Notes under the pieces: generated by a model
Told to the model about the DNA's origin: nothing
Databases searched by the model: none
What the model saw: the letters and a program-made list of their open reading frames with translations, nothing else
In this document: positions 8,827 to 39,479 of the stretch, piece by piece
Layout of the letters: every line of letters begins with the position of its first letter
How positions within the stretch are numbered: position 1 is the first letter of the stretch
Program-made: the position numbers and the translations under genes
From: Alphaproteobacteria bacterium
GTDB taxonomy: Bacteria; Pseudomonadota; Alphaproteobacteria; GCA-2731375
Length of the DNA: 58,975 bases
Assembly (NCBI GenBank): GCA_016869175.1
Contig: VGEV01000004.1
Coordinates: 1 to 58,975 of the forward strand
Direction of reading: 5' to 3'

Positions 8827-8884
8827 GGCCTTGGGAACCTTCGCGGGGGCGAGCGGCCGGAATGTAGGTAGTCGCGGCGGCCTG

Positions 8885-9847
8885 TCAAGCCGCCGGGCTG
8901 GCGACCAGCAGGGCTTCCGCCGCCCGCCAGACCTCGTCGACCGGCAGGTCCGACAGCGCCGGCCGCCGCAGCACGCGCACCCGGGGGCCGCGGGGCGCGG
9001 TGCGGGCAGGGTCGGAGGCGGCGGAGAACAACACGAGACAAGGCGCGCCCACTGCGGCCGCAAGGTGCATCGGGCCCGTGTCGTTGCCGATCGCCAGGCG
9101 CGCGCCGCGCGCCAGCGCCGCCAGTTCGAACAGGCTGGTCTCGCCGCACAGGTTGCGGGCCTGCGGCGCTTCTTGCGCAATCGTCTCGGCCAGCGCGCGT
9201 TCGTCTCCGCCGCCCAGCAGCATCGGCACCACGCCGCGCGCGGCCAGCCGCGCGGCCAGTTCGCCGTAATGTCGCCACGGCCAGCGTTTCAGCGGCCGAT
9301 GCCGGGCCCCACCCGGCACCAGCAGCGCGTAGCTTGGCGGCAGCGCGAAACGGGCGAGCTCGGCGGTCAGCCAGGCAAGATCGGGCGGCGGCACCTCGGC
9401 GATGCCGATGTCCTTGAGCTGATCGCGCTGGCGCTCCAGGGTGTGCATGCGCTGGCGTTCGGGATGGCGGTGACGATGGCTGGCGCCGGCGGCGATGCCC
9501 GACCATTGCGGCCGACCGTGGCGCGGGAAGAAGCGGAGGTAGAAACTGGAGCGGTCCGAGGTTTGCAAGTCATAGACCCGCTGAAAGCCGCCTTGCCGCA
9601 GCCGGCGGCGCAAGGCGAGCCAGCGGCCGATCGCGTGCCACTTCGGCCGCTCGTCGAGCCAGACCCGGTCGACATAGCCGGATGCCGCGGCCAGCGCCTG
9701 GAACGGCTGCGTGGTCAGCAGCGTGATGCGCGCCTTGGGATGGGCGCGCCTGATGGCGGCGAGCGGCCCCAGCGCCAGGATGAAATCGCCGAGCGCGCCG
9801 TGCTTGATGACCAGGATATGTCGTGCGTCGGCAATGCCCGCCGTCAT
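8885..9847 (-). CDS. Glycosyltransferase family 9 (heptosyltransferase-like)
   Basis: A 320-residue GT9-family enzyme, the family of ADP-heptose:LPS heptosyltransferases. The N-terminal Rossmann half starts [20 protein letters not shown]. The C-terminal nucleotide-sugar half has [16 protein letters not shown] and the family signature [20 protein letters not shown]. The likely role is adding a sugar to the inner core of LPS on the cytoplasmic face; donor and acceptor cannot be read from sequence. Its ATG overlaps the stop of the upstream GT4 gene by 4 bases, so the two are probably translationally coupled and act on the same glycan. Confidence 0.88.
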
Positions 9848-22658: not shown

Positions 22659-22745
22659 GCCCAGGTGGCGGAATCGGTAGACGCGCTAGCTTCAGGTGCT
22701 AGTGGGGGAAACCCCGTGGAAGTTCGAGTCTTCTCCTGGGCACCA
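22659..22745 (+). tRNA. tRNA-Leu (anticodon CAG)
   Basis: An 87-base class II tRNA with encoded CCA. The acceptor stem GCCCAGG (22659-22665) pairs with CCTGGGC (22735-22741), followed by A and CCA (22743-22745). The anticodon stem CTAGC/GCTAG encloses the 7-base loop TTCAGGT with anticodon CAG, reading CUG, the dominant leucine codon in a genome this GC-rich. The long variable arm GTGGGGGAAACCCCGT is typical of tRNA-Leu, and GTTCGAGTC is the T-loop. A possible promoter is TTGCAT (22584) with TAAAAC 17 bases downstream. Confidence 0.97.
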
Positions 22746-29327: not shown

Positions 29328-29546
29328 TCAGTGCACGCTGACCGGTTCCAGGTCGTTCTGCCAGCAGGCCGCGGCCGCCGAGGCCTGGGCATCGAAATCG
29401 CCAAGCAGCCTGCCGTCGGCGGCGTGCACGGCAAATCGCGGCATGCCGTCAGCTAGGTGCCGGCGGATATAGGCCACCTCTTCCAGCCCGATCGCCAACA
29501 GCGCCTGGCGCGAGAGCGGCGAAGCCGATTTCAGTAATTCTGGCAT
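29328..29546 (-). CDS. DUF1150 family small protein
   Basis: A 72-residue protein of the DUF1150 family, found mainly in alphaproteobacteria next to small heat-shock genes. Family features are EEVAYIRRH, FAVHAADGRLLGDFDA and the C-terminal ending QNDLEPVSVH. Its function is unknown. It follows hsp20 by 23 bases on the same strand and is convergent with ptsN, the stops 10 bases apart. Co-expression with Hsp20 suggests a role in protein quality control. Confidence 0.85.
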   Translation of the reverse strand: MPELLKSASPLSRQALLAIGLEEVAYIRRHLADGMPRFAVHAADGRLLGDFDAQASAAAACWQNDLEPVSVH

Positions 29547-29569: not shown

Positions 29570-30034
29570 TCAGCGGCTTTCGCCTGGCGGCGTCCGCTTG
29601 GCCGCCGTCTGCGGCTGGGTCAGCTCACCGTTCCTGATCTCGATCGTGCGGCTGACCGGGTTGTGCTGCGGCCGTGCCAAGTCGATGCTGAGCAGCCCGC
29701 TGTCGAGCGTGGCGCCCGTCACCACGATGCCCTCGGCCAGAACGAAATTGCGTTGGAACTGGCGGGCCGCGATGCCGCGGTGCAGGTAGACCTTCCCGGC
29801 TTCCTCGGCCTGCTGGCCGCGGATCACGATCTGGTTATCCTCCAGCGTGATGTGCAGGTCCTCCCGCGCGAAACCGGCGACCGCCAAAGTGATGCGCAGC
29901 CCGTGCTCGCCAATGGCTTCGATGTTATGGGGCGGATAGCCGTCATGCGCCGACTTGGCGACCCGGTCGTGCAGCCGCTCGAAATGGTCGAAGCCCAGCA
30001 ACAGAGGGCTGTTGAACAGGGTCACGCGGTTCAT
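29570..30034 (-). CDS. Small heat shock protein, Hsp20 family
   Basis: An ATP-independent holdase of 154 residues from ATG 30034 (MNRVTLFNSPLLLGFDHFER), the usual alphaproteobacterial IbpA-type N-terminus. The alpha-crystallin domain covers about 35-130: YPPHNIEAIGEHGLRITLAV, AGFAREDLHITLEDNQIVIR, YLHRGIAARQFQRNFVLAEG. The IxI-like motif SRTIEIRN lies near the C-terminus. A longer frame to 30073 exists but reads through the putative ROSE hairpin. GAGGAGGG at 30042-30049 is a strong Shine-Dalgarno 7 bases from this ATG. Confidence 0.95.
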   Translation of the reverse strand: MNRVTLFNSPLLLGFDHFERLHDRVAKSAHDGYPPHNIEAIGEHGLRITLAVAGFAREDLHITLEDNQIVIRGQQAEEAGKVYLHRGIAARQFQRNFVLAEGIVVTGATLDSGLLSIDLARPQHNPVSRTIEIRNGELTQPQTAAKRTPPGESR

Positions 30035-30038
30035 CGGC

Positions 30039-30067
30039 CCACCCTCCTCGACGATGAGCGAGCATGG
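30039..30067 (-). promoter_or_regulatory. Candidate ROSE-type RNA thermometer hairpin sequestering the hsp20 ribosome-binding site
   Basis: On the mRNA the left arm CCAUGCUCGCUC (30067-30056) can pair with GAGGAGGGUGG (30049-30039) around the loop AUCGUC. The right arm is the hsp20 Shine-Dalgarno. The left arm contains UCGCU (30061-30057), which matches the ROSE signature U(U/C)GCU: UC and CU pair with AGGA, and the intervening G is unpaired opposite the SD. ROSE elements control hsp genes in alphaproteobacteria by melting on heat shock. The full element would extend to the transcription start near 30125. Confidence 0.6.
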
Positions 30068-30131
30068 CATCATTGCCCGGAGCCGGCACCGGCCTCCGCG
30101 TGCGGCCCGGCACGGCGCCGCACGCGATGAT

Positions 30132-30159
30132 ATGTAGGAGTGCGCCGGGCCCGATCAAG
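30132..30159 (-). promoter_or_regulatory. Candidate RpoH (sigma-32) promoter for hsp20-DUF1150
   Basis: Reading the minus strand, CTTG (30159-30156) is followed after exactly 17 bases by CCTACAT (30138-30132). This fits the alphaproteobacterial RpoH pattern CTTG-N17/18-CYTATNT with one mismatch. Transcription would start near 30125, giving a leader of about 90 bases that contains the ROSE-like hairpin. On the other strand the same gap feeds the 3-hydroxyacyl-CoA dehydrogenase gene. Confidence 0.55.
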
Positions 30160-39386: not shown

Positions 39387-39479
39387 GCCGCCCCTCCCTT
39401 GCGATGGCTTGGCAGCCAGCCTAGCCAGCGCCACCGAATAGGCCAATCGGCCAAGCTGGGCAAGCCGGCCGTCGGCCGG

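Follow-up and report, generated by a model that had tools for sequence, protein, structure and literature searches.

The gene hsp20 in the window (the whole stretch of DNA analysed here, 58,975 nt of an alphaproteobacterial contig) is preceded by a leader whose 3' end might pair with its own Shine-Dalgarno (SD) region. Is this leader an RNA thermometer, and would the gene then respond to heat in translation as well as in transcription? Thermometers of the ROSE-like class are described as having a terminal hairpin, in which the SD is imperfectly paired to U(U/C)GCU with an unpaired G (PMC12857270). They are reported from the 5' untranslated regions (UTRs) of small heat-shock protein (sHsp) genes, which are about 60 to over 100 nt long and form two to four stem-loops (PMC4166951, PMC10474464). 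Our analysis suggests that the hsp20 leader is most likely a ROSE-like thermometer under an RpoH promoter, controlling the sHsp and the larA homologue behind it.

The hsp20 locus and its orthologues

The features of the locus are listed in Table 1. The hsp20 ORF begins with an ATG at 30034, and its product scored well over the PF00011 cut-off of 20.8 bits. The homologue of LarA encoded by the next gene was just above the PF06620 cut-off of 25 bits, and a shortened query of 66 aa fell under it (17.3 bits). The gene after hsp20 is a DUF1150/LarA homologue, and the leader therefore heads a presumed sHsp-larA operon. The best DUF1150 match also lay directly 3' of the window-type hsp20 in 18 of 18 genomes, which were chosen by handle and whose coordinates were compared by eye. 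In Caulobacter, LarA (annotated as DUF1150) was reported to be induced by heat shock and to activate Lon; larA and shsp2 form one operon there, reported to be directly controlled by sigma-32 (PMC10665427). On the other side, hsp20 shares its intergenic region with a divergent 3-hydroxyacyl-CoA dehydrogenase gene. The window also contains a tRNA gene at 22659-22742 on the plus strand (Rfam RF00005, 52.9 bits).

Table 1. Positions of the hsp20 leader, its putative RNA elements and the neighbouring features in the window
Feature	Position	Strand	Basis
RpoH (sigma-32)-type promoter, CTTG-N17-CCTACAT	30132..30159	minus	exact sequence
hsp20 5' untranslated leader, 91 nt	30035..30125	minus	start inferred from -10 spacing
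Hairpin I, GCGUGCGGC-[bulged G]-CC-GUGCC-GG-GCCGCACGC	30098..30125	minus	MFE fold
Possible hairpin II, GGAG-[bulged G]-CC-GGUGCC-GG-CUCC	30079..30097	minus	sequence; MFE at 15 C only
SD hairpin (ROSE-like), CCAU-G.G-CUC-[G]-CUC-loop-GAGGAG-G-GUGG	30039..30067	minus	local MFE
SD region, GAGGAG	30044..30049	minus	sequence
hsp20 (sHSP2 type), small heat-shock protein gene	29570..30034	minus	PF00011, 59.4 bits
DUF1150/LarA homologue, next gene 3' of hsp20	29331..29546	minus	PF06620, 25.7 bits

Orthologues of the window hsp20 were found in 156 of 289 genomes of the class (E<=1e-38). For the comparison, 109 leaders were gathered (29 of a first set of 30 loci and all 80 of a second set), and removal of nine near-duplicates left 100. 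One locus at a contig end (L029), two other hsp20 genes (L001 and L002) and a duplicate of the window's own locus (L003, of L004) were excluded from the counts. The 100 leaders are related sequences, and the counts given below are therefore of non-independent events. In refining the start codons, those with an SD were preferred, which inflates the SD counts and leaves the counts of YYGCU and of bulges unaffected.

The RpoH-type promoter

The promoter CTTG-N17-CCTACAT had been named by the sequence-only reading without a strand. It is exact on the minus strand, with CTTG at 30159-30156, a spacer of exactly 17 bases and CCTACAT at 30138-30132. The site has the features expected for RpoH: a CTTG -35 element, a suitable spacing and a C-rich -10 element ending in A/T. 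Placing the transcript start about seven bases beyond the -10 element, near 30125, gives a leader of 91 nt, in agreement with the roughly 90 bases proposed before.

The site scored 9.4, and only one other site in the 59-kb window scored as high. An ATG follows about 35 nt downstream of the latter (8861-8889, minus strand, CTTGACAGG...CCTACATT), and the product behind this ATG begins like what we take to be threonyl-tRNA synthetase. A weaker RpoH-like site (8.5, N18) is located near 39464 on the minus strand, upstream of another ORF, presumably one for peptide methionine sulfoxide reductase MsrA from the way in which its product begins.

The assignment to RpoH also agrees with the rest of the genome, which encodes an RpoH homologue over the curated cut-off, along with two weaker sigma relatives. 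Two further genes of this genome carry the same type of promoter: groES, with CTTGACGG...CCTAAAT and a score equal to that of the window site, and a second hsp20, with CTTGACC...CCTACGT and a score of 8.8. A strong RpoH-type site (score >=8.5) was present in 71 of the 100 orthologous leaders vs 0.3% of shuffles; the promoter weights were set after inspection of the leaders, and the contrast likely exceeds what such tuning would give.

Predicted folds of the leader

The local minimum free energy (MFE) fold of the last 38 leader nucleotides and six coding nucleotides is the SD hairpin, with the loop AUCGUC. In its helix CUC[G]CUC pairs with GAGGAG and leaves one G bulged; after a G.G mismatch, pairing continues with CCAU/GUGG. 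The hairpin that had been proposed for the leader end, in which UCGCU pairs with AGGA around an unpaired G, is recovered in this fold and lengthened at both sides. The window leader thus has the U(U/C)GCU pairing on the SD with an unpaired G that marks the ROSE-like class. It also belongs to a PF00011 gene, and both hairpin I and the SD hairpin appear in the MFE fold of its 91 nt, counted from the deduced start. UUUU is absent from the window leader, so a fourU thermometer, in which at least four U pair with the SD, is not indicated.

The response of these folds to temperature is less simple. In the local hairpin, the mean unpaired probability of the SD rose from 0.19 at 25 C to 0.23 at 42 C. 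When the full leader was folded from 30125, the ROSE helix was part of the MFE at 25-55 C, with ensemble probabilities of 0.20 (25 C), 0.35 (37 C) and 0.39 (42 C). When 30130-30020 was folded, a competing pairing of GCUCGCUC with GGGUGGGC was preferred. Nearest-neighbour folding showed no melting between 25 and 42 C, neither of the local hairpin nor of the full leader. For the full leader, the folding predicts a ROSE helix that becomes more, not less, probable as the temperature rises, which counts against a thermometer. The result was weighed lightly, because non-canonical pairs, which have been reported for ROSE elements (PMC4166951), are not covered by nearest-neighbour parameters. Because the folding programs show no melting, it is homology and conservation that point to the putative thermometer.

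The computed folds might instead be taken at face value. Only transcription would then be controlled by heat, and the SD hairpin would be a constitutive damper of translation, unresponsive in the physiological range. The almost constant accessibility of the SD from 25 to 42 C and the GC-rich leader suit this explanation. However, a simple damper needs no conserved imperfection, such as the bulged G, and the non-canonical pairs lie outside the parameters that gave the constant accessibility. Moreover, conversion of the bulged G of ROSE-G to a paired base was reported to abolish switching (PMC12857270). We therefore regard a constitutive damper as improbable.

The 5' bulged-G hairpins

The 5' part of the leader also appears to be structured. 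Two to three pairs from its loop, the 9-bp stem of hairpin I has a single bulged G, and possible hairpin II is a second copy of the same modular design. Of the 71 strong-promoter leaders, 42 had a single bulge on the 5' side of their first MFE hairpin, at a distance of 2-4 pairs from the loop (vs 6.2% of shuffles), and in 39 the bulged base was G (vs 1.2%). In this test the 50 nt around and after the presumed start were folded without any sequence anchor. It repeats an anchored search whose GCC...GG anchor was picked after inspection of the leaders. In that search, five to six of the six flanking positions could pair at the first anchor in 43 of the 100 leaders (1.8% of shuffles), and at the best anchor in 56 (3.2%). 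At each of the six pairs that flank the core of hairpin I, several standard types occur in a compensatory manner, for example GC, AT and CG. Because these pairs covary, hairpin I has very probably been conserved as an RNA structure, and this 5' bulged-G hairpin deserves attention in its own right.

Two pattern-defined copies of the hairpin were found in 12 of the 100 leaders vs 1 of 1000 shuffles. The leaders of L056, L063 and L075 have two tandem bulged-G hairpins 5' of the SD hairpin. Hairpin I and the SD hairpin share a Y-[bulged G]-C / GG core, outside which the stem of hairpin I is free to covary. It is conceivable, though rather unlikely, that a single module is used repeatedly along the leader, and that the conserved distal bulge might be another sensor, or a place where for instance the sHsp docks. 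If so, the sHsp-larA operon would respond to the unfolded-protein load as well as to temperature, and would set the Lon activity accordingly.

A related explanation makes protein binding the main role of the leader: free sHsp would repress its own translation, and heat-made aggregates would titrate the sHsp away. The gammaproteobacterial IbpA is reported to bind its own 5' UTR and to repress translation; this self-repression was reported to act via Arg93, and the authors note conservation in alphaproteobacteria (PMC10474464). In the window protein, R91 and Y33 occupy the positions of Arg93 and Tyr34 of the E. coli IbpA, and both are invariant in 23 aligned orthologues. On this view it would be the structure, not the melting, that is conserved, and the 5' bulged-G hairpin is a conserved element though remote from the SD. 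However, two conserved residues within a conserved fold are little evidence, and the anti-SD signature is explained without any protein. Binding of the sHsp as the main role is therefore considered unlikely. The E. coli ibpA leader (L165) ends in TCTCGCTGATTTCAGGAG, which is very like the alphaproteobacterial CUCGCU...AGGAG.

Conservation of the layout

The SD core was found in 96 of the 100 leaders. The anti-SD motif YYGCU lay 2-14 nt 5' of the SD in 91 of the 100, vs 7.9% of shuffles that kept the SD; it occurred at 6 of 136 control starts, which are other SD-preceded ORF starts in 61 of the same loci. In 54 of the 96 leaders the local MFE contained a helix with a bulged G on the SD, vs 3.7% of shuffles and 4 of the 136 control starts. 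Nine of the 100 leaders are without YYGCU, and the folded bulged-G helix is missing from 42 of the 96.

The pattern GCC-N5-GG...TCGCTC...GAGGAG matched in 63 of the 289 genomes of the class, and 16 of these loci were immediately 5' of the window-type hsp20 on the same strand, as compared by eye. Most of the remaining matches look like chance, because the reversed pattern also matches many genomes. The leader of the window itself is spaced differently and so is not matched by the pattern.

The same layout of promoter and leader recurs 5' of this hsp20 across many alphaproteobacteria, so that the leader is well supported as a member of an established kind of RNA thermometer. The reading as a ROSE-like motif behind an RpoH-type promoter has therefore held: both are exact in the window, and both are conserved far above the shuffled and real-gene controls in the 100 leaders. 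Chance is hardly credible as the source of the hairpin and the promoter in this GC-rich intergenic region. It is already contradicted by the enrichment over controls, and a bulged-G 5' hairpin, a bulged-G SD helix and YYGCU occurred jointly in only 1 of 5000 dinucleotide shuffles of the window leader. In favour of chance, the folding energy of the whole stretch is ordinary (z-score -0.95) and the window has no Rfam ROSE match.

Proposed mechanism

For a ROSE-like thermometer under an RpoH promoter, we infer the following course. At growth temperature the RpoH activity would be low, and the CUC[G]CUC:GAGGAG helix would block the entry of the ribosome. Upon heat shock, RpoH would raise transcription, and the imperfect helix would open, so that the sHsp is made. 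LarA would rise alongside via the operon, and possibly via translational coupling. The 5' hairpins might stay folded and have a passive role, which would be to prevent mispairing of the SD hairpin.

A likely thermometer in front of an operon with a LarA homologue would put a protease regulator, and not just a chaperone, under dual heat control in many alphaproteobacteria.

Comparison with Rfam families

The sequence-only reading had proposed the score of the Rfam ROSE covariance model as a check. This did not bear the reading out for the window: the window gave no ROSE or ROSE_3 match at the gathering threshold, and at E<=10 neither a scan of 281 bases nor the window's own locus (L004) gave one, although some orthologous leaders matched weakly. 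The gathering cut-offs are 45 bits for RF00435 (ROSE) and 43 bits for RF02523 (ROSE_3).

RF00435 gave 13 matches of 21-31 bits in the window's own genome and 60 relatives, all below the cut-off, and all sit just 5' of the other type of hsp20 paralogue. One of them precedes the second hsp20 of the own genome (29.6 bits, below the cut-off, at G000:C5:51063-51154; L036, L161), whose leader has UUGCUC facing AGGAGG. The idea of a single ROSE-like leader in this genome was rejected, as this other hsp20 has an RF00435-like leader. Over the 289 genomes RF00435 had 73 matches, one of which (28.0 bits, G274:C27) was directly 5' of a window-type hsp20. The sequence-only account was sound for the promoter and the SD hairpin; it had missed the 5' bulged-G hairpin, the larA homologue and the leader of the other hsp20, which is nearer to ROSE.

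RF02523 matched 3 of 12 orthologous loci tested (L097, 35.1 bits; L118, 25.9 bits; L124, 23.8 bits) and 1 of 12 loci in the window's own family (L010, 21.6 bits, E 2.7). Its search of the class reached window-type loci in G294 (39.1 bits), G030 (25.9 bits) and G295 (24.8 bits), and many further places were listed at E<=1. The highest score among the orthologous leaders, 39.1 bits, is still under the cut-off. Rfam as the sole arbiter was rejected, as it is silent on the window yet gives weak matches in relatives. Most leaders in this orthologous group escape the present Rfam ROSE models.

The consensus of RF02523 has a bulged-G 5' hairpin with the bulge near the loop and ACUcGCu facing aGgAG, which is the layout of the compact orthologous leaders such as L097; the window leader differs in its possible hairpin II and in a longer spacer between the two elements. 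The consensus of RF00435 is also similar, with a bulged G in stem I and CCAugUUGCUC facing GAGGAuaUGG; whereas its match in the own genome is the leader of the other hsp20. The window leader has the ROSE/ROSE_3 layout, but a longer spacer and a possible additional hairpin place it outside both models. It is not filed under either family, and is assigned to the ROSE-like motif class.

Comparison with known systems

Published accounts already describe ROSE elements upstream of sHsp genes, and also the joint use of such elements and sigma-32 (PMC4166951, PMC3669281, PMC3989490, PMC2873474). For example, ibpA of P. putida is reported to combine sigma-32 with a ROSE-like thermometer (PMC3669281), and an Rfam ROSE element is listed 5' of an Hsp20 gene in Gluconobacter (PMC5756330). 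In the literature as covered, which was mostly open-access, the kind of element is known, and neither the orthologous group of leaders nor its link with larA was found in print. The papers covered on ROSE in Azospirillum and Rhodospirillum, or on DUF1150 in heat shock, gave no thermometer upstream of shsp-larA. The same holds for larA and RNA thermometers, where none of the matches listed was evidently on this LarA. A genome survey of ROSE elements was reportedly published in 2005.

The Caulobacter shsp2-larA operon is similar to the present locus in its gene order, with hsp20 followed by the DUF1150/LarA gene behind an RpoH-type promoter. In contrast to the leader considered here, the published account covers transcriptional control and LarA proteolysis, and the word 'untranslated' is absent from its main text (PMC10665427). 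The Caulobacter sHSP2 is also named in PMC8119881, in which no mention of an RNA thermometer was found.

ROSE-G also has a bulged G in the anti-SD strand, as does the window leader. Its motif is CUGCU, and its bulged G lies opposite a bulged G of the SD (PMC12857270); whereas the window leader has UCGCU with a one-sided bulge, and the two opposed bulged G of ROSE-G are not found in it. Compared with the ROSE-like thermometers in general, the window helix is longer, with a G.G mismatch beneath it, and is known here from its sequence and predicted folds. It has in common with them the UCGCU opposite AGGA, the one bulged G, and the 5' UTR of several hairpins in front of a small heat-shock gene.
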